Shown here: positions 22,713-59,508 of the stretch, piece after piece
Position numbering within the stretch: the first letter of the stretch is position 1
Layout of the letters: every line of letters begins with the position of its first letter
Source: Prevotella sp.
GTDB taxonomy: Bacteria > Bacteroidota > Bacteroidia > Bacteroidales > Bacteroidaceae
Reading direction: 5' to 3'
NCBI GenBank assembly: GCA_017623655.1
Contig: JAGAON010000007.1
Span: 248,001 to 312,000 of the forward strand
Length of the DNA: 64,000 bases
Translations under genes and position numbers: made by a program
The notes under the pieces: generated by a model
What the model was told of the DNA's origin: nothing
The model's input: only the letters and a program-made list of their open reading frames with translations
The model's database searches: none

Positions 22713-23299
22713 CAAAAGGGTGCTGATTACCCGGTAAACAGGTGCTGATTGCAATGTAATCAGGCCTCTTTTACCGGGTAATCAGCACCCTTTTGTTTTG
22801 GGACGCCGCACACGTTTGTTTTGGAATACCACGCACGCTTGTAGAGACGATGTACCACATCGTCTCAGCACCGGTATATGGTAACCGCCGGAAAGGTAAA
22901 AGTTATTGAGACGATGAGGTTCATCGTCTCTACAAATTGCGCCCATATATCGTTCTTTTAGATTATCTGCACCGAAGCAAAAGCCCTGAAAGGGCGGAAT
23001 AATACAGCACAGGGTGTCAACCCTGTGTAACACGTTACGACCATAAAATACTATTAAAACCCCGAAGCCGGCAGGCGAGGAGGCCATAGGCCGACGAGGG
23101 GTGAAAACAAAAACGGATAACGGTAAATGCCCTGCAAACGGCAAAAATCGCCGTAAACGGAACGCGGATGTATCACCCCTCGTCGCACTTCGTGCTCCTC
23201 GCCTGCCGGCTTCGGGGTGCCGATACCTTTTCCTCCATGCACAATCAATTCACAGGGTTGACACCCTGTGCTGTACTCTGCCGCCCTTTCAGGGCTTTT
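22713..23299. repeat. Composite D-A-B intergenic element, fullest copy
   Basis: Three repeat modules in order. D (22713-22795) is a near-perfect palindrome of about 80 bp with arms CAAAAGGGTGCTGATTACCC and its complement. A linker (TTTTGTTTTGGGACGCCGCA...CACGC) leads to A (22839-22935), two GAGACGATG...CATCGTCTC palindromes in inverted orientation with TTGTAGAGAC ends. B (22979-23299) is bounded by GCCCTGAAAGGGC and its inverse. Inside it are ACAGGGTG...CACCCTGT arms and an inner CCCCGAAGCCGGCAGGCGAG inverted repeat. The modules and linkers recur at 28295-28693, 52174-52437 and, inverted, 58951-59508. No gene is present; open frames here are translated repeats. Confidence 0.8.
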
Positions 23300-23313
23300 T
23301 CTATGCCTATTGT

Positions 23314-23411
23314 TTGTAGGGACGCACCTTGGTGCGTCCGCCATACGTGTCGGTTCGCACGCATATCCCGCATTATCCGGACGGCGAACGCACCAAGGTG
23401 CGTCCCTACAA
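23314..23411. repeat. Family C inverted palindrome doublet (REPIN-like)
   Basis: TTGTAGGGACGCACCTTGG and its inverse complement separated by about 45 nt. It abuts the composite element on the left and lies 52 nt from the 3' end of the ComEC-like gene. Nothing else is seen in 23412-23462. Confidence 0.8.
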
Positions 23412-23462
23412 ACAACACAAAATAACGCAAAATAACGCGCAACAATCGCGCAAACGCCACCG

Positions 23463-24695
23463 CTATGCCCCCGGCAACGAGGCTATCCACCCGATACACT
23501 GGTTCTGAAAACGCACCACGATGGTGAGGAGGGCGGCGCATAGCGACGTGAAAGGGGCAAGGAACGGGAGGACGGGCAGCAGAACGCCGGACAGGAGAAG
23601 GGCGAACGAAAGGAAGATAATGGCAAAGGAGCACGGCGAGACAATGAAACTGCTGAGCACGGAGTATGTGGCGAAACGCCCGAAATAATGCGCCGCAAGC
23701 AGCATCACGCCCACATTGGCCGACAAGGACAGCACGAAGACGCTCCACACCCACCCCGCGAACATGACAACGGCATCGCCGGTGCGGCGCCTTACCGTTT
23801 CCTTGCCGAAAGGAGGGGACGGTTCCGAAGGCGTGGGACGGAAGAGACCGTCACGCCGGGGGCGCAGACCGGCAAGACGGACGTGCGGCTTATGGAACAC
23901 GACTATCGAGAGTACGGCCATGAAGGACATCTGGAAACCGACATCGAAAAGCCACGAGGGACGCAGGACAAGCAGCAGGAAGGCGGTGGCGGAGAGTGAC
24001 TCCAGACCGCCGGAGTGCCGTCCTGAAAGGGTGAGGAGGCTGTAAAGGCTGAGCATGACGGCGGCACGGACAACGGAGGGACGGCCGCCTACCAGCGCGA
24101 CATACGCCCACATCAGCAGCAGGAGCGCGGACAGGGCGGACTTGGGGAAACGCCGGCGTGGCAGCAACAGCGACAGGATGAGGTATATCATGCCCAGATG
24201 CAGGCCGGAAAGGGCGAACACATGAGACGCTCCACTGACGATATAGTCCTCACGCAGGGCGCCGCTGATATGCTGCCTGTCACCCAACGTCATGGCCGAC
24301 ACCACCGAATACTCGTCGCCGGACAGCCCCTCCCTTGCATAAACGGCCGCCAGTTCGGCGCGTTTCCCGGCCATGAAGTCGGACAGGACGGGCGGAACGG
24401 GAGCGTCGGAGGGGACTACTCCGGCAGCAGTCCCGTTGTTGCGGGCGAGGAATATGCCAAGGAAAAAGACCGAAGCGAGAACCGCCGGCACAGCCATCCG
24501 ACCGTGGCGGTTCAGCAGCAACGCCGCCATTGACAGGACGACAGCCGCCGCACCCGTCACGGAAGGACACAAAAGCCATTCCGTGACGGATGCGGCGGAA
24601 ATGGAAGACGCACCCGACGCATCTCCCGACACTATGCCGGCGACAAGCAATGCCAGCGCCGCAAGAGAGGAAGGAATGCGTGGGTGCGTCCTCAT
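23463..24695 (-). CDS. ComEC/Rec2-like DNA-uptake channel, short form
   Basis: Integral membrane protein of 410 residues carrying the ComEC/Rec2 competence domain, which in the family moves single-stranded DNA across the inner membrane. Visible hallmarks: LSGDEYSVVSAMTLGDRQHI, then SGASHVFALSGLHLGMIY (about 155-172), GGRPSVVRAAVMLSLY and DVGFQMSFMAVLSIVVF, with about ten hydrophobic segments. It is short: I see no metallo-beta-lactamase domain at the C-terminus and no clear OB-fold (DUF4131) before the competence domain. It starts 22 nt after the PL11 lyase stop on the same strand, so read-through is possible. Its 3' side faces the repeat cluster. Whether it works in DNA uptake is unproven. 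Confidence 0.8.
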   Translation of the reverse strand: MRTHPRIPSSLAALALLVAGIVSGDASGASSISAASVTEWLLCPSVTGAAAVVLSMAALLLNRHGRMAVPAVLASVFFLGIFLARNNGTAAGVVPSDAPVPPVLSDFMAGKRAELAAVYAREGLSGDEYSVVSAMTLGDRQHISGALREDYIVSGASHVFALSGLHLGMIYLILSLLLPRRRFPKSALSALLLLMWAYVALVGGRPSVVRAAVMLSLYSLLTLSGRHSGGLESLSATAFLLLVLRPSWLFDVGFQMSFMAVLSIVVFHKPHVRLAGLRPRRDGLFRPTPSEPSPPFGKETVRRRTGDAVVMFAGWVWSVFVLSLSANVGVMLLAAHYFGRFATYSVLSSFIVSPCSFAIIFLSFALLLSGVLLPVLPFLAPFTSLCAALLTIVVRFQNQCIGWIASLPGA

Positions 24696-24717
24696 TATAC
24701 GTTGTTACGGTAGCGCC

Positions 24718-28089: not shown

Positions 28090-28164
28090 ATTCTTACGGT
28101 TAGTTAGTTATCTGTCGTTGTTTAGCGGTGGTTCTGAACACCTTAGGTTTATGATATTCCGTTG

Positions 28165-28196
28165 CAAAGATACGAATATTTTTTCTAAAAGCCAAC
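28165..28196 (-). promoter_or_regulatory. Candidate promoter of the PL11 lyase gene
   Basis: The minus strand has GTTG (28196-28193), 20 nt, then TATCTTTG (28172-28165), close to the Bacteroidetes TTTG/TAnnTTTG pattern, 76 nt before the ATG at 28089. Confidence 0.6.
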
Positions 28197-28294
28197 ATTC
28201 CGAGGGCAATTTCTCACAAATAAGCCATTCCGCAGCGGCTTTTAACGCCGTGCATCACCGCCGCACGCCGTCATGCGGGTTATTAACGCCGCCG

Positions 28295-28563
28295 CAAAAG
28301 GGTGCTGATTACATTGTAAACAGGTGCTGATTACACGGTAATTTGGTGCTGATTGCAGTGTAATCAGCACCTGTTTGTTTTTAAGACACCGCACACGCTT
28401 GTAGAGACGATGTGCCACATCGTCTCAGTGCCGGTATATTTTAGCCACAGAAAAGACGAACGGCATTGAGACGATGAGGTTCATCGTCTCTACAAATTTC
28501 GCTCATATATCGGTTTGATATGCGATTCACAACAATGCAAAAGCCCTGAAAGGGCGGCAGAAC
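28295..28563. repeat. Composite D-A-B element, second copy with short B
   Basis: D4 (28295-28376), the linker TTTTAAGACACCGCACACGC, A2 (28399-28495), a linker beginning AAATTTCGC, then a solo B end with GCCCTGAAAGGGCGG (about 28543-28563). Same order and linkers as 22713-23299 and 52174-52437. Confidence 0.8.
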
Positions 28564-28567
28564 AAAG

Positions 28568-28728
28568 CGCCTTTTGTTTTGGGAAACCGTGCACGCTTGT
28601 AGAGACGATGTACCACATCGTCTCAGCACCGGTATATTTTAGCCACAGAAAAGACGAACGGCATTGAGACGATGAGGTTCATCGTCTCTACAAATTTCGC
28701 CCATGTATCGTTCTTTCAGGGCTTTTCC
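28568..28728. repeat. Partial composite element: D-linker end, A doublet, B stub
   Basis: CGCCTTTTGTTTTGGGAAAC (the D-A linker without D), then A3 (28597-28693, TTGTAGAGACGATG to CATCGTCTCTACAA), the AAATTTCGC linker and a half B palindrome (TTTCAGGGCTTTT). It looks like a tandem partial duplication of the preceding element; the central 50 nt (CAGCACCGGTATATTTTAGC...) are nearly identical between A2 and A3. Confidence 0.75.
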
Positions 28729-28747
28729 TTATGTCTTTCCGTAATTT

Positions 28748-28834
28748 CGGACGCACCAAGGTGCGTCCCTACACCATCCGTTTGTAACGCTATTGGTGCA
28801 TGAGATCATGTAGGGACGCACCTTGGTGCGTCCG
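28748..28834. repeat. Two family C half-units facing outward
   Basis: CGGACGCACCAAGGTGCGTC with CCTACA (28748-28773) and TGTAGGGACGCACCTTGG onward (28809-28834). The halves are in the opposite relative order to the doublets at 22602 and 23314. Confidence 0.75.
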
Positions 28835-28891
28835 ATTTCACGTGCCGGCGTGCCCGAAGCAAAAGGAAACGGGCAATGCCTGCCCCTCTCA

Positions 28892-28973
28892 TGTAGAGAC
28901 GATGAACCTCATCGTCTCAATAAACAGACGCTTGATAACGACGTGGAGACGATGTGGTACATCGTCTCTACAA
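28892..28973. repeat. Family A doublet, copy A4
   Basis: TGTAGAGACGATGAACCTC and CATCGTCTCTACAA enclose two GAGACGATG palindromes. The remainder of the 1054-nt gap 28090-29143 has GGCGGGCGACAAACAACCA-type direct repeats near 28975-29058 and no gene. Confidence 0.75.
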
Positions 28974-29072
28974 AGGCAGGCGACAGACAACCATATCCCG
29001 GAAAATGTGGATAACCGTATGGTAAATCTTCCCTACAAAGGCGGGCGACAAACAACCACGGTGGCTGATATA

Positions 29073-29106
29073 CAAAAAAGTTCCGCAAACCATTGGCTTG
29101 CGGAAC
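29073..29106 (-). terminator. Rho-independent terminator after the uxu-type operon
   Basis: On the minus strand, GTTCCGCAA, a 9-nt loop and TTGCGGAAC make a perfect 9-bp stem followed directly by TTTTTT. It lies 38 nt after the mannonate dehydratase stop. Confidence 0.88.
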
Positions 29107-29143
29107 CTGTATATCCATTACATAATACCGTACTGACACCCCC

Positions 29144-30406: not shown

Positions 30407-30420
30407 AAAAACAATTTTAG

Positions 30421-30455: not shown

Positions 30456-30514
30456 TTTATTTATACAGCCAGAAGGACAGGATTAGAGATAATTTACAAA
30501 TCACAAGTTGACCG

Positions 30515-31980: not shown

Positions 31981-34900
31981 CTACCGTACTTTCAGCACCT
32001 TTCTCACTTTATCGCCGACTTCGATATACACACCGGTGCCGTAAGGCTTGCTTACCCTTACGCCCCCCGCGTTATACATACCCGTTTTGCGGCGACGCTG
32101 ATCCGCTTCCATGCTTCCGCCGATGACAAGGGAGAAGCGGGAAGGGGAATCTGAGGGACTGACAGATGTAGTATAGTCACCTGACAGCAGATTGGTAACC
32201 GTACCGGACGCCTTGTCCTTGATGCACACATTAGCGTAAGCGGCGTACACTGTCTTGTCGGTGAGGGAGAAGGTGTATGCGGATTCGCCCTTTACCGCTA
32301 CCGTCAGCGGTATCTCTGTACCGACAGGAGCATGGGACAGGAGTGACAGACCTACGCCGTCTGTGCCGCATACGGAAATCTGCGGCAGCGTATCGTTGAG
32401 CGAAGCAAACTTCACTCCGTCCACACCGAAGCGGTAATCCAGACCATTTGCCGCACGGCCGCTTCCCGTTTCATCCGCGGTTTCATCCCCGTAAGGGAGG
32501 ATTATGACCTCATCCGTGCCATATCCTTCCGCAGACATTGCAAGTGCCGGCATTCTGTATGCCACTGTTCCGGAAGTGTTATCGGCATAATACAGTTTGG
32601 AGAAACGCAGGTTCTCTGTCTTCCCGTCACCTATCACGGCCGTCTGCGTGAAGAAGGCGTCACCCGGAGAGAGTGTGGCAGAAGCGGTTTCGTCCCACTT
32701 CCATGAGTACTTCGTTTCATACTTGCCCTCAACATTCATGGTATAGAGCACATGAGGCACGAACATTGTCTCCCTGCCGTCATCGCCTGTCACACCTGTA
32801 TCATATCCGCTAATCAGGTAAGGCACACCTTTCAGGTTCCAGCCCATGTTGTATTCGGAGGTGAACCGGAAAGAAGAGCCGCCGGCGTCAACGTCACTTT
32901 GGTCATGCTGCACCAGCGTAACAATCTTGTCCGCGGCGCCTTCCTGATAAGGATAAAGGCTGGAGGCATTGCCGAAAGACGTGAAACGCAGCACTTCTCC
33001 ACCTGTATTGTCTCCCCTGTCCAGCAGGATACCGTCATTGGCGGCTATGACGCCATCCACGGCGAATGTCTCGTCCACAGGCTTCCAGCAAGGGGAATTG
33101 TCAGCCTTGTACTCATAATTCCATCCGCTTCGTTCCCTGCCGTCATACCAATATTTCCCATAACCGTCGCCCGCAACCTCTTCCGCCATTGAGATTACCT
33201 TACCGTCTTCCTCTGCGTATGTGGTGCAGGTGATATGGTTGTCATCATTCTTCATGTCGAAAGGCATCGCCACCATGGCGTAACGGCCGGCCACCTTACG
33301 CTCGGCGGCCACATACTGCAAGCGTATCTCATTGCCCTGGCCGTAGAGTGAGCCTCCCTCCATCGCCAACAGGTAACCGGGTCTCAGCGGGTTCTCCGCC
33401 GTGAAGTAAGGTGACCCGATACCGGGGGCAAGTTCACACACGAGATTTCCCTTGTCCTGCAAATAGACCACAGAGCCTTCATGCGGGTAATGGTTTCCGG
33501 CGTATGAGCCTTCCTTCCTGTTTGCGAACAATGTCTCCGGTGTCATCGCTGCGGAAGAAAGCGACTCATAAGAGCCTGTTGACCACGTCTCGTAACATCC
33601 GAGGTCTATCTTGTTGCCCAACACACGGGGATTGCCCAGCAGGTCGCGGTCAACGGTAAAGTCAACATATTCCCGCAATGCGGCGTTTGACAGGAGCTGC
33701 TTTCCGGTAACGTCGTCATTGTTACTGCCTGTTCCTATATACCGTGCCTTCTCATGCAGCTGATACCACAGGTTCCTGTTGTCGCTATCGGGTACGTCAC
33801 CGGCATGATAAGCCACATCCGACGGACGGAAATACGGGGCGAAAGGCTTTACTCTGTCACCGTCCCTATATACTATATTATTTATGGAGCGGCTGTTATC
33901 CGGAGACAACAGGCTTTCCCAACTGCCGGTTTCTCCCGCAAGGGTGCAGTTCAACATATATCCGTCTGCCCCAAGATTTACATCTGCCTTGCCGTTGTCA
34001 CGCACAAGGACGTTATACAACAGGCCGGAATGGTTCTCTATCAGTTTCGCGTCACCCGTCACCTTATTATTATTAATGACCGAATTGACGAGAGCCACGG
34101 TGCTGTTCTGTCCTAACGACACCACCGGTTCCGTTGTTTCGGCAGGCTCATTGCCGTCTCCACTGCCTATTTCCAGTCCGTCAAAGAGGCAGAAGTCCAC
34201 ATTGTCACCCGCTTTCACGCTTCCCACAACGGTATGTTCGCTCATGGCCATGCCTTCGCGGTCGGCTTTCATCAGGGTCAGGTACGCGTCTATGTTTTCG
34301 TTGGAGTAGGTAACGTTGGTCTCGCCCTCTTTCACTTCACCATCCACCTGTTTGATATAGGTAGGGTCGATGCTTCCGTATAGCGACACGCCATTCCTCA
34401 TTATCAGCGCCTCGTCTGTATGTTTGTTTTCCAGTCCCTTTACAAAGACGTATGCCCTTCTTTCCGCTTCCGTCCCGCCATCACTGACATCGTAATATAC
34501 GGAAGCGGCATCGATGGCCGTCTGTATCTGTCCCTTGCCGTATGCGTTCTCCCATGATATGCCATTGCCAAGGATTGCCTTCTTGGGATCTACATAGAGC
34601 ACGCGGTTCAGAGCCACGACACACTCGTAGGCTCCACGTTCCAGACCGCTGCCGTAGAAGCGTGTGATGTCCGCCAAGTCCTTGTCTTGTCTTACCCTTT
34701 CAATGTTTGAATCCGCCGTATATGGGTACTCTCCCGTCAGGTTCTTTACCAGCTTTACATAAATATCTACATCGCCCTTGCTCAAAATCTTTGAACTCGG
34801 ATTGACATGAAAGTCACGCGGACTGACGGTAACCGTCAGGTCAGCGGCGGAAGTCCCGTCGGGCACTTCCATCGGGGCAAAGAAGTTCGGGCCGTTGATA

Positions 34901-43893: not shown

Positions 43894-44002
43894 GACATGA
43901 CTTACGGAAAGTGATCTTATGCCGTTGATGCTTACGCCCTGAAAGGGCAATGGGCACTTAGCCCGGGGCAACACCCCGGGGATAATACGCCGATATGGCA
44001 AT
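43866..44002. repeat. REP array (family B palindromes) at the start of the giant gene
   Basis: GCCCTGAAAGGGCAATAAGC (43870-43889) lies inside codons 2-9 of the giant gene. A second palindrome with GCCCTGAAAGGGCAATGGGC is at about 43932-43952, followed by TTAGCCCGGGGCAACACCCC with GGGG. The transposase unit begins at 44003. No separate gene is seen in 43894-44023. Confidence 0.8.
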
Positions 44003-44538
44003 CGCCCTGAAAGGGCAAAAGCGTTAATCAACAAACACATATTTCTCATCATATTCAACATCGTATAATTTCAAGAAGTCGATATATTCGTCTCTGAATG
44101 TGCGCTTCTCATGATGCGCACGCTGATTCTTTATGTATTGTAATGTTTTGTCAACCACCGACCGGCTTACGGAGAATGCGCCGTAACCGCTCTGCCACTC
44201 AAATGTCCGGTAACATGGGGCAATGTTTTTTATCCATCTGCTGCTATTGCGTTTCACCTCCTCCACCACATGGGACAAACTCTCGTTCTTTGAGAGCAGG
44301 AACAGTATGTGGACATGATTGCCTATGCCGCCTACCTGTATCACATGACTTCCGGTCGTGTTTACCAGTTGGCCTATATATGAGTGCACACGTTCCAATT
44401 CCCCGTCACGGATTTCCGGACTTGTTGTTTTTATGTGGAATATCAGATGAATGTATATTTTACTTAATGACTGTGACATTTGTTTCTTTGTTCTCCGGGG
44501 TGTTGCCCCGGACTGTACGCTTTTGCCCTTTCAGGGCG
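44003..44538. mobile_element. REP-associated transposase unit bounded by perfect 21-bp inverted repeats
   Basis: The left end 44003-44023 (CGCCCTGAAAGGGC plus AAAAGCG) and right end 44518-44538 are exact inverse complements over 21 bp. They enclose a single transposase gene whose stop codon abuts the left repeat. The palindrome core GCCCTGAAAGGGC is the same one that bounds family B elements elsewhere in the window. Confidence 0.85.
44024..44479 (-). CDS. IS200-like Y1 transposase of the REP-associated (RAYT) type
   Basis: Single-strand DNA transposase of 151 residues in the Y1_Tnp (IS200) family. The HUH metal motif is seen as GNHVHILF (H55, H57) and the likely catalytic tyrosine is Y115 in KTLQYIKNQRAHHEKRTF. 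Size and the NQRxHH motif fit Bacteroidetes RAYT-type enzymes. It lies alone between perfect 21-bp inverted REP sequences, with further REPs on both sides, as expected of a RAYT that acts on its own flanking palindromes. It may mobilise the window's family B repeats; the link is based on the shared GCCCTGAAAGGGC core, not on direct evidence. Confidence 0.93.
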   Translation of the reverse strand: MSQSLSKIYIHLIFHIKTTSPEIRDGELERVHSYIGQLVNTTGSHVIQVGGIGNHVHILFLLSKNESLSHVVEEVKRNSSRWIKNIAPCYRTFEWQSGYGAFSVSRSVVDKTLQYIKNQRAHHEKRTFRDEYIDFLKLYDVEYDEKYVFVD

Positions 44539-44566
44539 ATTAGTAATTTATCGCATTTCGTTTTCC

Positions 44567-44612
44567 CGGGGTGTTACCCCGGGCTAAGTGCCCATTGCCC
44601 TTTCAGGGCGAA
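44567..44612. repeat. REP pair beyond the transposase unit
   Basis: CCCGGGGTGTTACCCCGGGC (about 44572-44591) and TTGCCCTTTCAGGGCG (about 44596-44612). These mirror the repeats at 43932-43985 in reverse orientation, so the transposase unit sits inside a larger inverted arrangement. Confidence 0.75.
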
Positions 44613-44628
44613 GACGTTTGTTGCATCA

Positions 44629-44915
44629 ACGGACGGGTGAAACCGTTGCATTGCGAATCCATTGCGTTATCAACGGATGGGTGAAACCGTTGCATTGCGA
44701 ATCCATTGCGTTATCAACGGACGGGTGAAACCGTTACATTGCGAATCCATTGCGTTATCAACGGACGGGTGAAACCGTTACATTGCGAATCCATTGCGTT
44801 ATCAACGGATGGGTGAAACCGTTGCATTGCGAATCCATTGCGTTATCAACGGACGGGTGAAACCGTTACATTGCGAATCCATTGCGTTATCGGCGGACGG
44901 GTGAAACCGTTGCAC
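44629..44915. repeat. 44-bp tandem repeat, six full copies and a partial seventh
   Basis: Unit ACGGACGGGTGAAACCGTTG followed by CATTGCGAATCCATTGCGTTATCA, repeating exactly every 44 bp from 44629 to 44892, with a decayed last copy. Variation is limited to ACGGA(C/T)GGG and CCGTT(G/A)CA. It lies between the transposase unit and the fimbrial operon. There are no spacers, so it is not a CRISPR array. Probably a variable-number repeat. Confidence 0.92.
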
Positions 44916-44918
44916 CGA

Positions 44919-45010
44919 TGGCGGGCTGAAAGCCCAACCTGCTCTTAGCCCGGGGCAACACCCCGGGAAACAAGATGCCATTTGTTTGATGCCGCCCTGA
45001 AAGGGCAAAA
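44919..45010. repeat. REP cluster downstream of the fimbrial operon
   Basis: GGGCTGAAAGCCC, TTAGCCCGGGGCAACACCCC with GGG, and GCCGCCCTGAAAGGGCAAAA with GCG, i.e. the same palindromes that surround the transposase. The gap 45011-45203 otherwise holds only D5. Confidence 0.75.
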
Positions 45011-45091
45011 GCGCTCATTGTCATGTCACGGCATCCTGCCGTGCAATCACCTCTGCGGCCGGGCTTTATCGTTTCCTTGACATTTACCCGC

Positions 45092-45155
45092 GCAATCGGG
45101 TGCCGATTACCGTGCAATCAGGTGCTGATTACACTGTAAAAGGGTGCTGATTGCA
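45092..45155. repeat. Family D 22-bp palindromic tandem repeat, copy D5
   Basis: GGTGCCGATTACCGTGCAAT, GGTGCTGATTACACTGTAAA and GGTGCTGATTGCAC are three units with a 22-bp period, 50 nt downstream of the last fimbrial gene's stop. Confidence 0.8.
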
Positions 45156-45203
45156 CCCATATCTCCTTACTCCTGATTTCCAACCGGTTACGTCCGCCTT
45201 TCT

Positions 45204-51834: not shown

Positions 51835-51996
51835 AATAATTTTATAATCAACGGTATGTTAGTATTACCTTTATCTTGTTATCTGATGTTCCACTACTCT
51901 TTCCATGTTTCCTATGTTTTTATATCCTGACAACATAGTTCCTTACATTATTGATATATTTCCATATTTTCACTCCCTTTTTACAGAAATGATGTG

Positions 51997-52028
51997 CAAA
52001 ATAAGTAAAAAAATCTCAACTTAACAAA
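51997..52028 (-). promoter_or_regulatory. Candidate promoter of the fimbrial operon
   Basis: Minus strand TTTG (52028-52025), 21 nt, then TATTTTG (52003-51997), one base short of the TAnnTTTG consensus. It gives an AT-rich leader of about 155 nt to the DUF3575 ATG. Confidence 0.5.
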
Positions 52029-52049
52029 TAAATACAATAGTAATGTCTT

Positions 52050-52094
52050 CCCCCCCCCCCCGCATTTAACTAACATTAACGCTTCTGGGGGGGG
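52050..52094. repeat. C12 and G8 homopolymer tracts facing each other
   Basis: Twelve C (52050-52061), 25 nt, then eight G (52087-52094). The tracts are complementary, so they can pair as a hairpin. The C12 edge lies 22 bp upstream of the -33 box of the candidate fimbrial promoter. Homopolymers of this length are prone to slippage. Confidence 0.9.
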
Positions 52095-52173
52095 ATTAAC
52101 AGTTCCGCAACACATCAACACACAGAAACAAGTGCGTATGTGCTCCTGAAGCACTCATATAACATCCCTGTGT

Positions 52174-52437
52174 GAAAGGGTGCTGATTACCTTGTAAACA
52201 GGTGCCGATTACACAGTAAAAGGGTGCTGATTGCAATGCAATCAGCACCCTTTTGTTTTAAGACACCGCACCCGCTTGTAGAGACGATGTAGTACATCGT
52301 CTCAGCACCGGTATATGGTAACCATCGGAAAGGCAAACGGCATTGAGACGATGAGGTTCATCGTCTCTACAAATTTCGCCCATGTATCATTCTGTCAGAT
52401 TATCTACAACAACACAAAAGCCCTGAAAGGGCGCAAA
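52174..52437. repeat. Composite D-A-B element, third copy, abutting miaB
   Basis: D6 (52174-52255), the linker TTTTAAGACACCGCACCCGC, A5 (52276-52372), the AAATTTCGCCCATGTATC linker and a short B end (AAAAGCCCTGAAAGGGCGC, about 52418-52437). It ends 4 nt before the miaB stop codon and may terminate miaB transcription. Confidence 0.8.
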
Positions 52438-52440
52438 GGC

Positions 52441-53772
52441 TCACACTACCTCTCCGAAGAGCGTGGCCGAGGTGCTTCCCGTTATGCGCACCCTTACGGT
52501 GTCGCCTATGTAGTGGTCACCCTTGTCGAACACCACCATCTTGTTCTGCGAGGTGCGTCCGCAGAGCTGCTCACGGCTGCGCTTGCTGAAATTCTCCACC
52601 AGCACGTCAAACTCCTTGCCCTCGTCCATACGGTAGTTGGCGGCGGACAGTTCCGTCTGCAACTGTATCATCTCGTTCAGGCGGCGTATCTTCACCTCCT
52701 CCGGCACATCGTCCGGCAGGTGCTTTGAGGCGTATGTACCCGGCCGCTCGCTGTACTTGAACATGAACGCGCTTGCATATCCCACTTCCTTCATCAGCGA
52801 CAGCGACATCCGGTGGTCCTCCTCCGTCTCCGAGTGGTAGCCCACGAAGATGTCGGTGGTTATGGCGCAGTCGGGAATGATGCGCCTTATGGCCTCCACA
52901 CGCCCCATGTACCACTCGCGGGTGTAGCGGCGGTTCATCAGTTGCAGTATCCTGTCCGAGCCGGACTGCACCGGCAGGTGTATGTGGCGGCACAGATTCG
53001 GATGGCGGGCAATGGTCTCCAGCGTCTCGTCGCTCATGTCCTTCGGGTGCGAGGTGGTGAACCTCACCCTCATCTGCGGCACTTCCTCGGCCACCATGCG
53101 CAGCAGTTCGGGGAACGTCACGACGGCGTTTCCCTCTCCCGTCACGCACCGGTAGCTGTTCACATTCTGCCCGAGCAGCGTCACCTCCTTATAGTTTCTC
53201 TCCGCAAGGTCACGCACCTCACGCAGTATGCTCTCCACATCCCGCGAGCGTTCCCTGCCCCTTGTGTATGGCACTATGCAGTAATGGCAGAAGTTGTTGC
53301 AGCCACGCATGATGCTGACGAACCCCGAAAGGCGCGCGCCATGGCTGCGCCGCGGCATCACGTCACGGTAAGTCTCGGTGGTGGAGAGGTCGGTGTCTAT
53401 CGCCTTCTGCCCCATCTCGCACTGGGCGATGAGGCCGGGCAGGGAGAGATAGGCGTCCGGTCCCGCCACGAGGTCGGCGTGATGCTTGTCCAGCAGCTCC
53501 CCCTTCACGCGCTCGGCCATGCAGCCTAATACGCCGATGATGCGCCGTCCGCACAGTCCGCGCTTCACGTTCTCGGCGTGAAGAGCCTCCAGACGGTGGA
53601 GAATCTTGTTCTCCGCATTCTCCCTTACGGAGCAGGTGTTGAGGAAAACGGCGTCCGCCGTGTCTATGTCATCACCGGGTTCGTAGCCCGCCATCTGCAT
53701 GATTGCGGCCACAACCTCCGAGTCCGCCACGTTCATCTGGCATCCGTATGTCTCTATAAACAGTTTCTTCAT
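52441..53772 (-). CDS. miaB: tRNA-2-methylthio-N6-dimethylallyladenosine synthase
   Basis: Radical-SAM methylthiotransferase of 443 residues that adds the 2-methylthio group to i6A37 of tRNAs. Three N-terminal cluster cysteines are visible: C11 (ETYGCQMN), C47 (LNTCSVRE) and C84 (LGCMAE). The radical-SAM motif GCNNFCHYC gives C158, C162 and C165. A C-terminal TRAM-like domain spans about 380-443 (EFDVLVENFSKRSREQLCGRTSQNKMVVF). Length is normal. The start overlaps the stop of the histidine phosphatase gene by 4 nt (translational coupling). A composite repeat begins 4 nt past the stop. It is a housekeeping gene and marks this part as core chromosome. Confidence 0.97.
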   Translation of the reverse strand: MKKLFIETYGCQMNVADSEVVAAIMQMAGYEPGDDIDTADAVFLNTCSVRENAENKILHRLEALHAENVKRGLCGRRIIGVLGCMAERVKGELLDKHHADLVAGPDAYLSLPGLIAQCEMGQKAIDTDLSTTETYRDVMPRRSHGARLSGFVSIMRGCNNFCHYCIVPYTRGRERSRDVESILREVRDLAERNYKEVTLLGQNVNSYRCVTGEGNAVVTFPELLRMVAEEVPQMRVRFTTSHPKDMSDETLETIARHPNLCRHIHLPVQSGSDRILQLMNRRYTREWYMGRVEAIRRIIPDCAITTDIFVGYHSETEEDHRMSLSLMKEVGYASAFMFKYSERPGTYASKHLPDDVPEEVKIRRLNEMIQLQTELSAANYRMDEGKEFDVLVENFSKRSREQLCGRTSQNKMVVFDKGDHYIGDTVRVRITGSTSATLFGEVV

Positions 53773-55070
53773 TCCTTGTAATCACTCAGTTTCTTCATAT
53801 AATACTCCCTCACGTCCGCCCATTTGTAGTAAGGTCCGGTGACAGGGCTGAGGGATTGCGGCAGAGTGGCCTCCTCCTCGTTCAGCAACACCTTCACCAG
53901 CGGGTCGCGGTCGGCGGCATTGCGGCGGTAGAACACGAACTGCACGTTGCTTGCCATCATGAAAATCTTATAGTCGCGCCAGCCGTTTTTCTCTATGTCG
54001 GCAAGGTCACGGTACTGCGTTCCGTAGCCGTTGAGGTCGAGAAGGCACACCAAGGGCAGCACGCACACCTCGTGGCCGTAGCGCAAGGTGGCGCCGGGCA
54101 CGGGCAGGGCAAGTGCGGAATCCGCCTCTTCCACTATCTTTCTCAGCAGGTTGCGCTGCGAATAGACCTGCGTTCCGCCGTTGAGCGGCGAGGGGCCGAA
54201 AGTGATGTACCAGTTGGCATTGCGCACAAGCCAGATGTTGTAGAGCTCTTCAAAGGTGAAGAAGTCATACAGCGACAGGCTGTGCCGCAGCTCCGTGCTC
54301 TGCATATCGGAGCAGATTTTCCATATCTCGTCCACATAGAACTGCTTGGGACGCTTCACGTTGTCCCGCCAGTAGTTCTCATCCTTGAAGATACGGTTCA
54401 TGAACGGCACCCAGTCCAGGTGCTGTCTCTCGAACTCCATGTACGCTTTCTGCGCCTCGGAACCGTCCGGCATCTTCTGCGCCGACAGTTTTTTGTCGTC
54501 GAAATGGATGTATCTCATGTCGCCTTTCGAGGCGTCCAGCCTGAACGTGAGGTTGGGATTGCGGCTTTGCAGGGCCAGAAGGGCGTTGCTCATGGACAGT
54601 ATGCAGCGCACCACCACCGAGCTGTTGGCCTTGATGCAGGTGCTGCCGCCGAACACGGCGGGGAACCTGTCGTACATCCGCAAGGCTATGTCATGGTGCT
54701 GCTGCGCGCCGAGCAGCGTCAGTTCCTCTATGTGTCCCGCCGCGTCATCCTTCACTTTGCGCAGTATCTCCATCAGTTTCCGCCCCTTTTCCGTCAGCAT
54801 CCCGGCGTCGTCAGCCGTCTTCAGCACGGAATACGGACGGGAATACGCCTTCTCGCCGATGAGGTAACGGGAGCCGTGGCGGCCGTAATGGCTGATATAG
54901 CACGCCTCGTAACCCTCTGGAGCCGCCGTAAGAGGCTTCTGCGGGGCGCGGTACGCCACGTAATTGTCGCCCGACAGGGTTATGTCGCGCCTGAAATCGT
55001 CCATCGCCGTCTGCGCGTTAAGGCACAGACTGCATAACAGGATGAGGAGGGAGGTAAGTTGTCTGGTCAT
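53769..55070 (-). CDS. Secreted histidine acid phosphatase (MINPP/phytase-like)
   Basis: Exported phosphomonoesterase of 433 residues in histidine phosphatase clade 2. I start at 55070 (MTRQLTSLLILLCSLCLNAQ signal) instead of the longer frame at 55178, whose extra 36 residues resemble no signal peptide and run into the antitoxin gene. Motif HYGRHGSRYL holds the catalytic His (about H65); the proton-donor region is RYGHEVCVLPL, an HE form. This fits the multiple inositol-polyphosphate phosphatases of Bacteroides, which degrade phytate, but other phosphomonoesters are possible. It overlaps miaB by 4 nt. Confidence 0.88.
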   Translation of the reverse strand: MTRQLTSLLILLCSLCLNAQTAMDDFRRDITLSGDNYVAYRAPQKPLTAAPEGYEACYISHYGRHGSRYLIGEKAYSRPYSVLKTADDAGMLTEKGRKLMEILRKVKDDAAGHIEELTLLGAQQHHDIALRMYDRFPAVFGGSTCIKANSSVVVRCILSMSNALLALQSRNPNLTFRLDASKGDMRYIHFDDKKLSAQKMPDGSEAQKAYMEFERQHLDWVPFMNRIFKDENYWRDNVKRPKQFYVDEIWKICSDMQSTELRHSLSLYDFFTFEELYNIWLVRNANWYITFGPSPLNGGTQVYSQRNLLRKIVEEADSALALPVPGATLRYGHEVCVLPLVCLLDLNGYGTQYRDLADIEKNGWRDYKIFMMASNVQFVFYRRNAADRDPLVKVLLNEEEATLPQSLSPVTGPYYKWADVREYYMKKLSDYKE

Positions 55071-55113
55071 GGATGTTAAGTTTATTGTATGGCAATGATA
55101 TGGTGAATGTTTC

Positions 55114-55425
55114 TCAGGCCATTGCAACGTCAAGCCTGATGCCAAGCGCATTGCACACTTTTGAGAGCAAGGAGACACTGCCGCCGTTACCGTTTTCCAA
55201 GCGTGTGAGCTGTGATCGGCGCACGCCTACACGCTCTGCAAGCTGGCTGGCGGTAATACATTGCGCCTCACGTTCCTTGCGCAGCTTTTCGCCAAGGCGG
55301 TATTCGTCAATCTTTGCCTTGGCTTCTTTCTCGAAAAGGGTACGCTCCGGTGTGCCCTCTTCTCCTATTTGCTCGTCCAATACCTCCTCAAAGGTGTAGA
55401 ACTTCATATCTCCTATCTTCTCCAT
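55114..55425 (-). CDS. XRE-family antitoxin (HigA-like)
   Basis: DNA-binding antitoxin of 103 residues. The N-terminal half (FYTFEEVLDEQIGEEGTPER) probably binds the toxin. The C-terminal half is a helix-turn-helix (ITASQLAERVGVRRSQLTRLENGNGGSVSLLSKVCNALGI read in two helices). It follows the toxin gene with a 2-nt gap, in the toxin-first order typical of HigBA. It would autoregulate the operon, possibly through the tandem GCAAAAGTA sites near 55797-55815. Confidence 0.9.
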   Translation of the reverse strand: MEKIGDMKFYTFEEVLDEQIGEEGTPERTLFEKEAKAKIDEYRLGEKLRKEREAQCITASQLAERVGVRRSQLTRLENGNGGSVSLLSKVCNALGIRLDVAMA

Positions 55426-55427
55426 GG

Positions 55428-55766
55428 CTAATGTTTTTTCTTGTATTCAAAATATTTCCTCATTATAGCCTCAGCCTTGGCTATCTCTTTTTGTGGTGTC
55501 TTCTTGATGATGCCGTGGGTGGCAACCACGAGCGTATCGGTGTCAGTGTCCCAAAAGGCGAATAGCCGATATGCCATTTTGTTATACAGAGTCCGGAACT
55601 CCCAGATGTCTGTATTGTCCAGTTTCTTGAACAGTTCCTTGTTCCTTTCTCCACCGGCAACCCTGTATATGTTGTGATATATCTTCCTTGAAGCCTGTTG
55701 CGGCAAGCCTTCAACAAACTGCCTTGCTTCTTCTGACATTATCAGCCGGAACGTGCCTTTATCCAT
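55428..55766 (-). CDS. RelE/HigB-like toxin (Gp49 family)
   Basis: Predicted ribosome-dependent mRNA interferase of 112 residues. RelE-fold segments: FRLIMSEEARQFVEGLPQQASRKI, then IWEFRTLYNKMAYRLFAFWD and DTLVVATHGIIKKTPQKEIAKAEAIMRKY, the last being the common HG-xxKK-TPxxEI-A motif of phage-derived Gp49-like toxins. Paired with the antitoxin downstream. The pair lies just upstream of the phosphatase-miaB genes and could be a small mobile stability module. Confidence 0.92.
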   Translation of the reverse strand: MDKGTFRLIMSEEARQFVEGLPQQASRKIYHNIYRVAGGERNKELFKKLDNTDIWEFRTLYNKMAYRLFAFWDTDTDTLVVATHGIIKKTPQKEIAKAEAIMRKYFEYKKKH

Positions 55767-55774
55767 TTCACTTG

Positions 55775-55815
55775 CAAATGTACGGTTATTCTTTGTGCAA
55801 AAGTACGCAAAAGTA
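55775..55815 (-). promoter_or_regulatory. Promoter/operator region of the toxin-antitoxin operon
   Basis: Three TAnnTTTG-type boxes on the minus strand: TACATTTG (55782-55775) and two TACTTTTG (55805-55798, 55815-55808). The last two are part of a 10-bp direct repeat (GCAAAAGTA) that could be an antitoxin operator. The nearest box is 9 nt from the toxin ATG. Confidence 0.45.
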
Positions 55816-55855
55816 TTGGAATGGCAAAATTATCCGTACAAAAAACACCCGCCAC

Positions 55856-55887
55856 CTTGGCCATTCCGAAAAAAAACGTTACTTTTG
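55856..55887 (+). promoter_or_regulatory. Promoter of the M15 peptidase gene
   Basis: CTTG (55856-55859), 20 nt, TACTTTTG (55880-55887), an exact -7 box. The ATG at 55895 follows after 7 nt, so the transcript would have almost no leader. Confidence 0.65.
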
Positions 55888-55894
55888 CAACGTT

Positions 55895-56578
55895 ATGATT
55901 CGACTTATATATACCTTATTATATATGCTCCTCACGCTGCCGTCCATGGCGCAGAAGGCCGGCGACGTGCTGCCCGAATGCCGCACGGAGGCCGAGGCGC
56001 GACAGCGTGCCGCACGTTATTTCACCGGCGAAGAGATACCCGACGAGGTATTCCGGCGCATGAGGGGCAAGTCGTTTCCGGCTGGTTGCACCGTGAAACG
56101 CAGCGACCTGCGCTACCTCTGTATGCTGCACCGCAACAGGGAGGGGCGCACACAGGTGGGGGAGATGGTCTGCAACAAGGCCATCGCCGGCGACCTGCTC
56201 CGCATTTTCCGCCGTTTGTATGAGGAGGGCTACCGCATCGAGCGCATGATGCTCATCGACGACTACGGCGCTGACGACGAACGGTCCATGGCGGCGAACA
56301 ATACCTCATGCTTTAACTTCCGCCTTGTCACCGGTTCCCGCACCCGTGTGTCGAAACACGGCATGGGCATGGCGGTAGATATAAACCCGCTTTACAACCC
56401 GTACGTCAAGGGGAAGGTCGTGAGACCGGCCGCCTCACGGCCATACGCACGCGACCGCGGCAAGGTGCCGATGGCCATACAGCGGGGCGACGTGTGCCAC
56501 CGGCTTTTCACACGGCATGGCTTTTCATGGGGCGGAGCGTGGAGAAGCCTGAAAGACTACCAGCATTTCGAGAAGTGA
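55895..56578 (+). CDS. M15-family D-alanyl-D-alanine carboxypeptidase-like metallopeptidase
   Basis: Exported zinc peptidase of 227 residues. Start chosen at 55895 (MIRLIYTLLYMLLTLPSMAQ signal); the frame is open further upstream but that region holds the promoter. The zinc-ligand motif SKHGMGMAVDIN fits SxHxxGxAxD, and a second ligand is in the terminal DYQHFEK (H). The central IERMMLIDDYGADDERSMAANNTSCFNFR fits the M15 substrate cleft. It probably trims peptidoglycan peptides in the periplasm; the exact bond is not established. A family C half-repeat lies just after the gene. Confidence 0.88.
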   Translation: MIRLIYTLLYMLLTLPSMAQKAGDVLPECRTEAEARQRAARYFTGEEIPDEVFRRMRGKSFPAGCTVKRSDLRYLCMLHRNREGRTQVGEMVCNKAIAGDLLRIFRRLYEEGYRIERMMLIDDYGADDERSMAANNTSCFNFRLVTGSRTRVSKHGMGMAVDINPLYNPYVKGKVVRPAASRPYARDRGKVPMAIQRGDVCHRLFTRHGFSWGGAWRSLKDYQHFEK

Positions 56579-56595
56579 GAGAACAGCAACCGCCC

Positions 56596-56622
56596 TTGTA
56601 GGGACGCACCTTGGTGCGTCCG
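56596..56622. repeat. Family C single palindrome
   Basis: TTGTAGGGACGCACCTTGG followed by TGCGTCCG, a half-unit 18 nt after the peptidase stop; it could serve as a terminator. Confidence 0.7.
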
Positions 56623-56642
56623 AAATCACAGAATTTGCATAG

Positions 56643-57192
56643 AAAAAGCCCTGAAAGGGCGGAATAACACAGCACAGGGTGTAAACCCTGTGAATTGATT
56701 GCGTATGGAGAAAAAGGTATTGGCACCCCGAAGCCGGCAGGCGAGGAGCACTATGTGCGACGAGGGGTGAAGCGTCCGCATTCCGTTCACGACAATCCTT
56801 ACCGTTTGCAGGGCATTTACTGCTATCCGTTTTTGTTTTCACCCCTCGCTGCCCTGCGGGCATCTCGCCTGCCGGCTTCGGGGTGCCAATGGCATTTTAT
56901 GGTCGCAATGTGTTACACAGGGTTTACACCCTGTGCTGTGTTATTCCGCCCTTTCAGGGCTGTGCTTTTACGCTCTATTAACTAACGTATTACAAACGGG
57001 TGCTGATTACCTTGCGAAAGAGGCCTGATTACACTGCAATCAGCACCTGTTTACAGGGTAATCAGCACCCTTTTGCAAATCCACCGGTTATGACTTATGC
57101 GCCGTTATTGTAGAGACGATGTACCACATCGTCTCCGCAACCGCACCGCGTTACATTATTTACTGATACGATGTGGTACATCGTCTCTACAA
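56643..57192. repeat. Composite element in B-D-A order
   Basis: B2 (56643-56961) is a 320-bp nested inverted repeat with outer GCCCTGAAAGGGC, ACAGGGTGTAAACCCTGT and inner CCCCGAAGCCGGCAGGCGAG arms. D7 (56992-57077) and A6 (57108-57192) follow. The module order differs from the D-A-B copies, so the modules can be combined separately. It fills most of the 766-nt gap before the esterase gene; nothing else is seen there except its promoter. Confidence 0.78.
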
Positions 57193-57278
57193 TAACGGCG
57201 GCAACACGTCTGAAAAAACGCTTTCCATCCTTTTCCCGTTGCCGACGGTGACGCACCGGAATCTTTCTTTTCCTTTTA

Positions 57279-57310
57279 TTTGGCGGTATGGAATTTATTG
57301 CATAACTTTG
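57279..57310 (+). promoter_or_regulatory. Promoter of the double-esterase gene
   Basis: TTTG (57279-57282), 20 nt, TAACTTTG (57303-57310): both boxes match the Bacteroidetes consensus, 33 nt before the ATG at 57344. Confidence 0.8.
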
Positions 57311-57343
57311 CATACAGAAAACCACTTACTAACTATAACTGAC

Positions 57344-58765
57344 ATGAAGAAAACCTTATCTCTCATCATTATCGCCGCGCTGGCACTGTCGGCGGCGGCA
57401 CAGAGCACCGCGCGCAAATTCGTATTGAAAAACTCCGAAGACGGCAAGTCGGAGCTGACCGTATATCTCCCCACCCCCGAAGCGGCTTCACGGGCCAACG
57501 GAATGGCGGTGGTTGACTGCCCCGGAGGCGGGTACAGCCACCTGTCCATGCAGAACGAGGGGCACGACTGGGCGGAGTTTTTCAACGCCAAGGGCATCGC
57601 ATACGTGGTGTTGCAGTACCGTATGCCCCACGGTGACCGCAACATCCCGCTCTCTGACGCGTACAACGCCATGCGCACCGTGCGCGACTCCGCCGCCGTG
57701 TGGCACGTGAACCCGCGCGCCGTGGGCATCATGGGATTCTCGGCGGGCGGACATCTGGCGTCAAGCGTATCGACACACGCCCCCTATGAGGCACGCCCCG
57801 ACTTCAGCATACTGTTCTATCCCGTGGTGTCGATGGTGGAGAGAGACACGCACAAAGGCTCGGTAAGGGGATTCTTGGGTGACAATTACGGCGACAAGGG
57901 GCTGCAACGGGAGTGGTCAAACTTCAATGCCGTGCGCCGGCACATAACTCCTCCCGCCATAATACTGCTGGCCAACGACGACCGTGCGGTGCCGCCGGTG
58001 ACGAACGGAGTGGCGTATTACAGCGCCATGCGCCGTGCGGGAAACCTTTGCGAGATGCACATCTACCCCACAGGCGGCCACGGCTTCGGCTTCAAGGCGT
58101 CATACAAGTACCACGACCGTATGCTGGCCGACCTCTCGCAGTGGCTTAAAGACGTGCCCCTGCCGGCCGAAAAGGACGTGAAGGTGGCGTGCATCGGAAA
58201 CAGCATAACCGACGGCCACGGCATAGACATGGCCGGGAGCCTGTCCTATCCCGCCCTGTTGCGCAAGCGTCTCGGCAGGGGTTACGAGGTAAAGAACTTC
58301 GGAGTGAGCAGCAGGACGATGTGCTCCGCCGGCGACAAGCCGTATATCCGGGAGCAGGCATGGCGTGACGCCAAGGCGTACAACCCCGACATAGTGGTCA
58401 TCAAGCTCGGGACCAACGACACGAAGCCGCAGAACCGCGACGTGGCAGTGCGTGACTTCGCGAAGGACTGTCAGGCGATGATAGACACATTGAAGGCTCT
58501 GCCGTCGAAGCCGAGGATTTATCTCTGCACGCCTATACCCGCGTTCAAGGACACATGGGGCATCAGCGACTCGGTGATAGTGAGCCTTGAGATTCCCGCC
58601 ATACAGAAACTGGCGAAGAAAAACAAGTTGAAAGTGATAGACCTGCATACGCTTTTCGCCGATCAGGCGAAGAATATGCTCAACGACGGCATACACCCCA
58701 ATGACAAGGGCGCCGCCCGTCTGGCGGAAATCGTGGCGGAGGCGTTGAAGGAAGAGAAGAAGTAA
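57344..58765 (+). CDS. Secreted two-domain esterase: alpha/beta hydrolase plus SGNH hydrolase
   Basis: Exported fusion protein of 473 residues, start chosen at 57344 (MKKTLSLIIIAALALSAAAQ); the longer frame runs through the promoter. Domain 1 (about 25-270) is an alpha/beta hydrolase like acetyl-xylan esterases: oxyanion PGGGY 60-64, nucleophile S133 in GFSAGGH, D212 and H246 (TGGHGF). Domain 2 (about 278-473) is an SGNH/GDSL esterase: block I GNSITDG with S287, GTND, and IHPNDKGA with the Asp/His pair. Both are common deacetylases of plant glycans, so the fusion probably strips acetyl or feruloyl groups from xylan or pectin. Substrate is inferred. Confidence 0.88.
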   Translation: MKKTLSLIIIAALALSAAAQSTARKFVLKNSEDGKSELTVYLPTPEAASRANGMAVVDCPGGGYSHLSMQNEGHDWAEFFNAKGIAYVVLQYRMPHGDRNIPLSDAYNAMRTVRDSAAVWHVNPRAVGIMGFSAGGHLASSVSTHAPYEARPDFSILFYPVVSMVERDTHKGSVRGFLGDNYGDKGLQREWSNFNAVRRHITPPAIILLANDDRAVPPVTNGVAYYSAMRRAGNLCEMHIYPTGGHGFGFKASYKYHDRMLADLSQWLKDVPLPAEKDVKVACIGNSITDGHGIDMAGSLSYPALLRKRLGRGYEVKNFGVSSRTMCSAGDKPYIREQAWRDAKAYNPDIVVIKLGTNDTKPQNRDVAVRDFAKDCQAMIDTLKALPSKPRIYLCTPIPAFKDTWGISDSVIVSLEIPAIQKLAKKNKLKVIDLHTLFADQAKNMLNDGIHPNDKGAARLAEIVAEALKEEKK

Positions 58766-58808
58766 ACAAGGCAGGAACCGCCCCGAAAGGACGATATTTA
58801 TACGAAAT

Positions 58809-58905
58809 TTGTAGAGACGATGAGCCTCATCGTCTCAATGCCGTTTGCCTTTCCGGTGATTACCATATTCTGGTGCTGAGACGATGTGATACATCGTCTC
58901 TACAA
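58809..58905. repeat. Family A doublet, copy A7
   Basis: TTGTAGAGACGATGAGCCTC to CATCGTCTCTACAA, two inverted palindromes with CAATGCCGTTTGCCTTTCCG between them. It lies 44 nt after the esterase stop and leads into the next composite. Confidence 0.78.
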
Positions 58906-58950
58906 GCGGGTGCGATGTCTTGAAACGAACATGTACCAATTATAAAGCAA

Positions 58951-59508
58951 GAAAGCCCTGAAAGGGCGACAGAACACAGCACAGGGTGTTAACCCTGTGA
59001 ATTGATTGCGTATGAAGAAAAAGGTATCGGCACCCCGAAGCCGGCAGGCGAGGAGCACGGAGTGCGACGAGGGGTGATACATCCGCATTCCGTTCACGAT
59101 GATTCTTGCCGCTTGCCGCACATTTACCGTTATTCGTTTTTGTTTTCACCCCTCGTCGCACTCCGTGCTCCTCGCCTACCGGCTTCGGGGTTCTAATAGT
59201 ATTGTAGGGTCGCAACGTGTTACACAGGGCTTACACCCTGTGCTGTATTATTCCGCCCTTTCAGGGCTTTTGATTTGTTGTGAATTGCATATAAAACCGA
59301 TACATGCGCGAAATTTGTAGAGACGATGAACCTCATCGTCTCAATACCATTTGCCTTTCCGGCGATTACCATATTCTGGTGCTGAGACGATGTGGTACAT
59401 CGTCTCTACAAGCGGGTGCAGGGGCTAAAAACAAACAGGTGCTGATTACAGTGTAATCAGCACCTAATCACACTGCAATCAGCACCTGTTTGCAAGGTAA
59501 TCAGCGGC
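58951..59508. repeat. Composite element, inverted copy (B-A-D)
   Basis: B3 (58951-59271), A8 (59315-59411), linker GCGGGTGCAGGGGCTAAAAA (the reverse of the D-A linker), then D8 (59432-59508). Read on the minus strand this is D-A-B, as in the three copies above. It ends 26 nt before the xerD stop. No gene in 58766-59533. Confidence 0.8.

Follow-up and report, generated by a model that had tools for sequence, protein, structure and literature searches.

A Prevotella repeat composite and the probable pairing of Acido-Lenti-1 units with a subclass 1.2 TnpA_Y1 transposase

Why do three families of intergenic repeats recur side by side in one part of a Prevotella genome, and are they moved by the transposase gene that lies among them? 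We analysed a window of 64,000 nucleotides, positions 248001-312000 of contig C3 (JAGAON010000007.1), in an assembly of 1.93 Mb and nine contigs that is 60% complete. The original prediction, made from the sequence alone, described D (a palindromic array with a 22-bp period), A (a doublet of GAGACGATG-N5-CATCGTCTC) and B (GCCCTGAAAGGGC with a second hairpin, in inverted pairs), joined by shared linkers into a D-A-B composite that spreads as a unit and may be driven by a REP-associated tyrosine transposase (RAYT; REP, repetitive extragenic palindrome) at 44024. We find the three families at the places described. Our answer, which we regard as highly probable, is that the Rfam family Acido-Lenti-1 consists of REP-type DNA elements whose cognate enzymes are the TnpA_Y1 transposases of subclass 1.2, that B is its paired form, and that the composite is a local secondary assembly. 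Counts from the scored searches of the genome and the genus are lower bounds, because only part of the candidates was scored.

B elements and Acido-Lenti-1

Each end of a B element carries GCCCTGAAAGGGC, a 13-nt hairpin, together with a second hairpin, and the two ends form an inverted pair. All eight B ends in the window match RF01687 (Acido-Lenti-1) at 49.1-55.1 bits, above the curated gathering score of 37 bits, and they make up four inverted pairs. Two of these belong to composites, at 22983..23295 in the first (55.1 and 52.1 bits) and at 58955..59267 in the inverted fourth (50.7 and 51.3 bits), while the B at 56648..56960 lies outside any composite (54.9 bits at both ends). A fourth full copy, absent from the original prediction, lies at 61297..61605 (49.1 bits at both ends). 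RF01687 itself is filed in Rfam as a small RNA (sRNA).

Pairing is also the rule across the genome. With 150 of 612 candidates scored, at least 133 RF01687 matches are spread over the contigs, 121 of them above the cut-off, and 102 of the 133 are arranged as 51 inverted pairs in which hairpin 1 lies on the outside; a single pair faces the opposite way, and there are no same-strand pairs within 400 bp. The start-to-start distance is 260-270 bp in 27 of the 51 inverted pairs; in three others the units lie just 26 bp apart, with one hairpin common to both. Beyond hairpin 1, no position is common to more than 60% of the 58 B ends examined, as expected for a mobile element that ends there. At 22983, the foot of the B element is ACAG. 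The element also contains a second, GC-rich inverted repeat, CCCCGAAGCCGGCAGGCGAGG (e.g. at 23060-23225), which is found in all four full copies of the window.

The transposase gene and the units beside it

The only Y1_Tnp match in the assembly is tnpA at 44024..44479 on the minus strand, which encodes a protein of 151 aa (PF01797, E 8.6e-21). Its motifs (NHVH, WQ and YIKNQRAHH) carry the HuH (histidine-hydrophobic-histidine), WQ and Y---Q--HH signature of subclass 1.2, for which Table 1 of PMC6006769 gives DH[IV]H, WQ and YIKNQKEHH, a median length of 148 aa, and 'no' under REP. Residues H55, H57, Y115, Q119, H122 and H123 are invariant in an alignment of 23 sequences (TnpA and 22 relatives). 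The pattern HxH..W..Y---Q--HH is present at 29/29 Bacteroidota and 30/30 Acidobacteriota loci which, like those used for the flank, proximity and foot analyses below, are the best-scoring loci kept rather than a random sample. By these motifs, rather than by a tree, the gene is best placed in subclass 1.2. The original prediction was thus right to single out this gene, which proves to be linked to module B, but its class needs correcting. The class 2 proteins, or RAYTs, have a Y---NP motif in the class descriptions of PMC6006769, and Y115-Q119-H122-H123 rules out a RAYT in this strict sense. The Y motifs given in the same source for subclass 2.6 and class 3 (YIH[QN]NP and YV[VI][AENY]EQ; 'atypical secondary structures') differ as well.

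We also considered an ordinary IS200/IS605 insertion sequence, for which several near-identical copies would be expected; the assembly has one Y1_Tnp, and the NCBIfam IS200 model gives 44.7 bits, under its cut-off of 55. The closest named relatives of TnpA are Prevotellaceae proteins, 74-76% identical. What links it to IS200/IS605 is its structural matches: a profile search of the PDB gave eight sequences, all of them transposases, with 2xm3 (which we take to be ISDra2 TnpA) first and 2a6m (ISHp608) among them. An open frame of 4026 aa on the same strand (31981-44061), for which there is no Pfam match, has a first ATG that overlaps tnpA.

The units immediately beside tnpA are of the B kind, which the original prediction had missed. 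They were detected with R1, a model built from 22 hand-picked flank units at 18 of 52 loci of TnpA relatives, none of them from this genome. To the left of the gene lies one Acido-Lenti-1-type double hairpin at 43936..43980 (+; 60 bits, E 6.6e-13). To the right lie two inverted ones at 44494..44537 (-; 52.9 bits, E 3.1e-11) and 44565..44609 (-; 58.4 bits, E 1.6e-12), and a further one at 44923..44967 (+; 58.2 bits, E 1.7e-12). Between the last two, adjoining the right-hand units, is a 44-bp tandem repeat (44625-44914, 6.6 copies, 95% matches), and a D array follows about 600 bp from tnpA, at 45095..45179.

These four units are the best R1 matches in the window (E 3e-11 to 7e-13), followed by all eight B ends (E 6e-8 to 2e-6; 32.7 and 35.1 bits for the B at 22983). 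Next come lone hairpins, weakly including those in the composites at 28543 (20.4 bits, E 0.0018) and 52420 (14.6 bits, E 0.043), and two further matches (E 0.33 and 0.51) look like chance. Since R1 finds both sets, the B ends are the same kind of element as the tnpA flanks. All pairs in the R1 units are standard, and in four of them (three in helix 1) both partners vary, which exceeds the count in 499 of 500 shuffles; the full pairing is partly by construction, because the units were hand-picked from a scan that requires hairpins.

A similar architecture is found beside relatives of the gene in other genomes. At many of the 52 loci, the flank units consist of hairpin 1, about 13 nt, and hairpin 2. 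Counted on both strands, the 9-mer CCTGAAAGG has a density of 4.67 per kb up to 200 bp from the gene vs 0.136 per kb elsewhere; at 38/52 loci one flank or both have it in the expected orientation (both at 19), and it points the wrong way in 8 flanks. A model-free comparison (score >=36) finds the upstream and downstream flanks to be mutually inverted repeats at 32/50, 14/28 and 22/30 loci in three sets, against 0/38, 0/27 and 0/29 in a control about 1 kb farther out and 0 after shuffling. Folded, and counted without a shuffled control, these inverted repeats hold at least two hairpins in 20/22 Acidobacteriota and 9/14 Bacteroidota. One locus (L189) was omitted from the inverted-repeat, folding and foot analyses. 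A looser scan for hairpin pairs gave 37/52 upstream and 37/50 downstream flanks in the expected orientation, but also 22 upstream and 28 downstream in the opposite one (5.8 in shuffled upstream flanks). The opposite orientation probably arises because the units are nearly palindromic; the scan was dropped in favour of R1 and the inverted-repeat comparison.

The flanks also have a foot. Over the 52 loci, YAG stands directly 5' of the strongest flank hairpin in 42/72 flanks vs 2 on the other side, and in Acidobacteriota in 30/49 vs 3, with ATAG, TTAG and GTAG the commonest forms. In canonical REPs, the sequence directly 5' of the hairpin is GT[AG]G. Three Muribaculaceae loci (L079, L080 and L082) have distant TnpA relatives flanked by other hairpins, e.g. 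GCCTCGGAGAGGC in L080, which suggests that unit and enzyme diverge together. In Myxococcota, a TnpA relative (L075) has an R1 unit 56 bp past its end (E 1.4e-8), so the pairing may reach further phyla.

Could Acido-Lenti-1 instead be a real non-coding RNA (ncRNA) whose gene is merely found near transposases? Rfam types RF01687 as an sRNA gene, and the table of the original survey marks Acido-Lenti-1 'y' under 'RNA?' (PMC2864571). The covariation of the R1 hairpins is likewise what an RNA structure would give, although folding of single-stranded DNA explains it equally well. What such an RNA fits poorly is the arrangement of the units, which come in inverted pairs, flank tnpA as inverted repeats and, at the B ends, share no position beyond hairpin 1 at the 60% level. 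We consider an RNA gene very unlikely.

Acido-Lenti-1 and the transposase across phyla

The co-occurrence of Acido-Lenti-1 and subclass 1.2 TnpA was examined in two phyla. Among 199 Acidobacteriota genomes, with 29 candidates scored for RF01687 in each, RF01687 is present in 50 and TnpA (E 1e-20) in 44, and 38 have both, where 11.1 are expected (p 5e-24); the odds ratio is 75, or 49 with TnpA at E 1e-10. Among 296 Bacteroidota genomes, with 20 candidates scored for RF01687 in each, RF01687 is present in 61 and TnpA (E 1e-15) in 133, and 43 have both, where 27.4 are expected (p 6e-6), a weaker association with an odds ratio of 3.8. The two also lie close together. In Acidobacteriota, 10/14 RF01687 matches are within 250 bp of tnpA (2.4 expected; 6/20 loci), and one acidobacterial locus (L074) has RF01687 on both sides of the gene. 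The corresponding figure for R1 in Bacteroidota is 27/42 matches (7.1 expected; 14/29 loci).

Several observations weigh against Acido-Lenti-1 as the partner of subclass 1.2. Around tnpA in the window (43700-45300), RF01687 gives one match, at 18.6 bits below the cut-off, and it reaches the cut-off at only 2/52 tnpA loci (L057 and L074), so the link between tnpA and B rests on R1, other genomes and architecture. In the inverted-repeat comparison, the direct orientation also passes at 18, 10 and 8 loci, probably because the units are nearly palindromic, and the YAG foot is weak in the Bacteroidota sample (5 vs 3 of 36). RF01687-positive genomes lack TnpA at our thresholds in 12/50 Acidobacteriota and 18/61 Bacteroidota, 12 of the latter 18 being in one family; conversely, no RF01687 was found among the scored candidates in 6/44 TnpA-positive Acidobacteriota and 90/133 TnpA-positive Bacteroidota. 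The proximity of RF01687 to tnpA is marginal in Bacteroidota (6/14 matches, 2.4 expected; 4/20 loci, p 0.02). As the genomes are related, the Fisher p-values are too optimistic, and co-occurrence was computed for subclass 1.2 TnpA alone, with no other transposase class. Finally, we infer the mobilisation of B, and no transposition event was seen.

On the reading we prefer, B would be a REPIN-like mobile element (REPIN, a doublet of inverted REPs) whose ends are Acido-Lenti-1 units. In each unit, hairpin 1 is outermost, and a linker of about 12 nt, with YAG as its last bases, leads to hairpin 2. Such units would be the substrate of the TnpA_Y1 at 44024, whose own gene has units of this kind, inverted, on its two sides. 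If TnpA acts as the enzymes of IS200/IS605 and REP systems do, it may bind folded single-stranded DNA at the replication fork and make its cuts close to the hairpins, so that doublets of the B type are copied or moved. The foot would direct cleavage and the hairpins would be recognised in single-stranded form, as the biochemistry described for those systems in PMC8266576 leads us to expect.

Of the known systems, the REP, REPIN and REPtron arrangements with TnpA-REP (RAYT, class 2) come closest. There too, dispersed hairpins in inverted pairs flank a single-copy Y1 transposase gene, and a tetranucleotide foot lies 5' of the hairpin. The B system is unlike them in that its enzyme is of subclass 1.2 (Y---Q--HH, not Y---NP), its unit has two hairpins, and its foot is NYAG rather than GT[AG]G. 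TIRtrons, whose transposases are called TIRYTs (terminal inverted repeat-associated tyrosine transposases), are described in PMC3733652 as Y1 genes flanked by long inverted repeats, some of them 'double palindromic', several from Acidobacteria, and some making up repeat families. By description they too stand apart, as the 26 TIRYTs given in PMC6006769 belong to subclasses 2.1, 2.2 and 2.5, and none to 1.2. From IS200/IS605, the difference is the single TnpA copy.

We found no tie of Acido-Lenti-1 or RF01687 to a transposase in passages of the open papers that name them, subscription papers and supplements being outside the search, and Acido-Lenti-1 is not named in the search listings of open work on RAYTs, REPINs, REPtrons and mosaic elements. 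On balance we lean towards a wider proposal, in which Acido-Lenti-1, rather than being primarily an RNA, is the end that the enzyme recognises in a REPtron lineage overlooked so far. Such a lineage would join a TnpA_Y1 of subclass 1.2 to a substrate with two hairpins and an NYAG foot, occur at least in Bacteroidota and Acidobacteriota, and form REPIN-like elements of about 310 bp. Here, one of these would have fused with a GTAG REPIN and a palindrome array, and the resulting chimera would have multiplied round tnpA. This would pair two orphans, an Rfam ncRNA family of unknown function, for which a passage in PMC13298647 suggests a part in the regulation of neighbouring protease genes, and a transposase subclass listed without REPs. 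If true, many features annotated as 'ncRNA' in Bacteroidota and Acidobacteriota are the ends of mobile DNA, and Y1 enzymes have a further mode of DNA recognition that is directly testable in vitro.

The composite and its three modules

With 40 of 125 candidates scored, a 192-nt core query (the end of D, A, the linker and the start of B) found at least 10 strong copies of the composite, all within C3:244,995-336,455, that is, at six intergenic sites in one 91-kb span of the 1.93 Mb. Six copies are in the window and four outside it. Two window copies are full D-A-B composites, at 22713..23299 (+) and, inverted, at 58951..59508 (-); in two more, at 28295..28563 (+) and 52174..52437 (+), B is cut to its first hairpin. 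A second, tandem copy of the core follows at 28573..28710 (+; C3:276573-276710), and a further A copy with composite linker sequence stands on the other side of B at 58792..58934 (-; C3:306792-306934). The copy at 52174 adjoins the end of a gene for a protein with radical SAM, UPF0004 and TRAM domains, and a tyrosine recombinase of the XerC/XerD kind (59534-60487, -) adjoins the inverted composite.

The copies have a common A spacing of 64 bp and are 80-100% identical to the query over 138-192 bp. Both the D-A and the A-B linker are kept in the ten aligned copies, as far as each extends and in both orientations; at 58792 the A-B linker is kept in its first part only. The original prediction of D-A-B units with conserved linkers at 22713, 28295, 52174 and 58951 is thus borne out, and the conserved linkers indicate that D, A and B were copied together, as one core.

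A general mobile element, by contrast, is not supported. Close pairs occur at three of the six sites, and a fourth has two copies with a B between them. For six sites scattered randomly over the genome, the probability of such a span is about 1.4e-6; a seven-site version gives 7.6e-8 genome-wide, and 0.002 if the sites are placed on this contig alone. The contig ends (at 338,615) about 2 kb past the last copy, so the cluster may continue. At E 1e-12, and with at most five candidates scored in each genome, the core is found in 0/149 other sampled genomes of the genus. The composite is therefore real but local, and it looks recent.

D, A and B are three families that occur mostly apart. Genome-wide there are at least 40 places with D, dispersed over the contigs (40 of 244 candidates scored), 139 A palindromes and at least 133 RF01687 matches vs at least 10 composites, and the composite A-B linker is present on 4/58 B ends examined of the at least 133 matches. 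We surveyed 254 kb of the genome, taken round such repeats, for mixing of modules and for A spacing. With a loose D pattern, two or more of A, B and D occur together in 28 stretches, in varying orders and spacings, and many of these stretches also carry a further GTAG family. The same portion has 33 A doublets, with a spacing of 49-52 in 21 and 63-64 in 12. Ten of these 12 are composites, and the other two, on contig C5, lack the linkers. Mean pairwise identity of the ungapped flanks is 0.68 and 0.49 for all twelve vs 0.46 and 0.34 for the 21.

Such mixing would fit an explanation by chance adjacency, in which intergenic regions simply receive many insertions and the composite never had a separate history. 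So would the B-D-A site at 56643-57192, which the original prediction counted among the composite arrangements. Beside its B, this site has a D array without composite linker (56995..57079) and an ordinary A doublet with a 52-bp spacing (57113..57187); its different spacing and absent linkers rule out a rearranged composite. For the ten copies themselves, chance adjacency is refuted by their common 64-bp spacing, linkers and high identity, and we give it almost no credence. The original prediction had taken independent modules together with unconserved linkers as the mark of chance adjacency; we find the modules mostly independent and the linkers conserved.

A stronger version of the original prediction is that the composite is a true non-autonomous mobile unit with D and B as its termini, moved whole by the TnpA at 44024, preferentially near its own gene, and that modules were lost later. 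The conserved linkers at six sites and in both orientations would agree with this. So would the midpoint of the cluster (C3:290.7 kb), which adjoins tnpA (C3:292.0 kb), and the right end of the composite, which is a hairpin of the Acido-Lenti-1 kind. However, a unit of the type that TnpA would recognise is found at one end only, and two of the four composites named in the window keep just a single hairpin of it. The close pairs fit duplication equally well, no copy was found outside the 91-kb span or in the sampled genus genomes at the scoring depths given above, and B is not clearly concentrated round tnpA (12 RF01687 matches in the span vs 6.3 expected, composites included). We therefore think movement as a whole unlikely. 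In the reading we favour, three apparently unrelated repeat families share the intergenic spaces of a Prevotellaceae-like genome; the composite would have arisen once, when D, A and B came side by side, and its core would then have been duplicated locally, in tandem and to nearby sites. The composite illustrates how REP families that are independent of one another can join to make a longer repeat.

Module A is a canonical GTAG-footed REP doublet, or REPIN, by its foot, inverted doublets and high copy number. Its palindrome has 139 exact matches in the genome vs 0 for the reversed pattern, a count well beyond chance, and all 33 doublets of the 254-kb portion have the GTAG foot on both sides. 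An ordinary copy, with 50-bp spacing and no composite linkers, lies at 28896..28968. There is no second Y1_Tnp, as the cognate class 2 transposase of A would be, in the 1.93 Mb of this 60% complete genome; A may belong to another system whose transposase lies outside the available part. Elsewhere in the genus, only three of 149 genomes have exact A palindromes (G021 with 14, G010 with 2 and G089 with 1). G021, which is 50% complete, is the sole one with many; its A spacing is 50-52 wherever two listed palindromes lie close, and it has no composite at E 1e-12.

Module D is an array of palindromes whose fold resembles that of a transcription terminator. The array at 52174 forms a 17-bp stem with a T-rich stretch after it, and terminator-like rows, some overlapping, number 22 in 52000-59700 vs a shuffle mean of 7.2, which is no proof of function. 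By its description, BrickBuilt of Porphyromonas gingivalis (PMC4596501), a Bacteroidales miniature inverted-repeat transposable element with a minisatellite, recalls the D array. A further family of GTAG-footed palindromes, GTAGGGACGCACC-TT-GGTGCGTCC, forms inverted pairs, often beside D and A, and occurs in the window at 22603-22690, 23315-23423, 28747-28841 and 56597.

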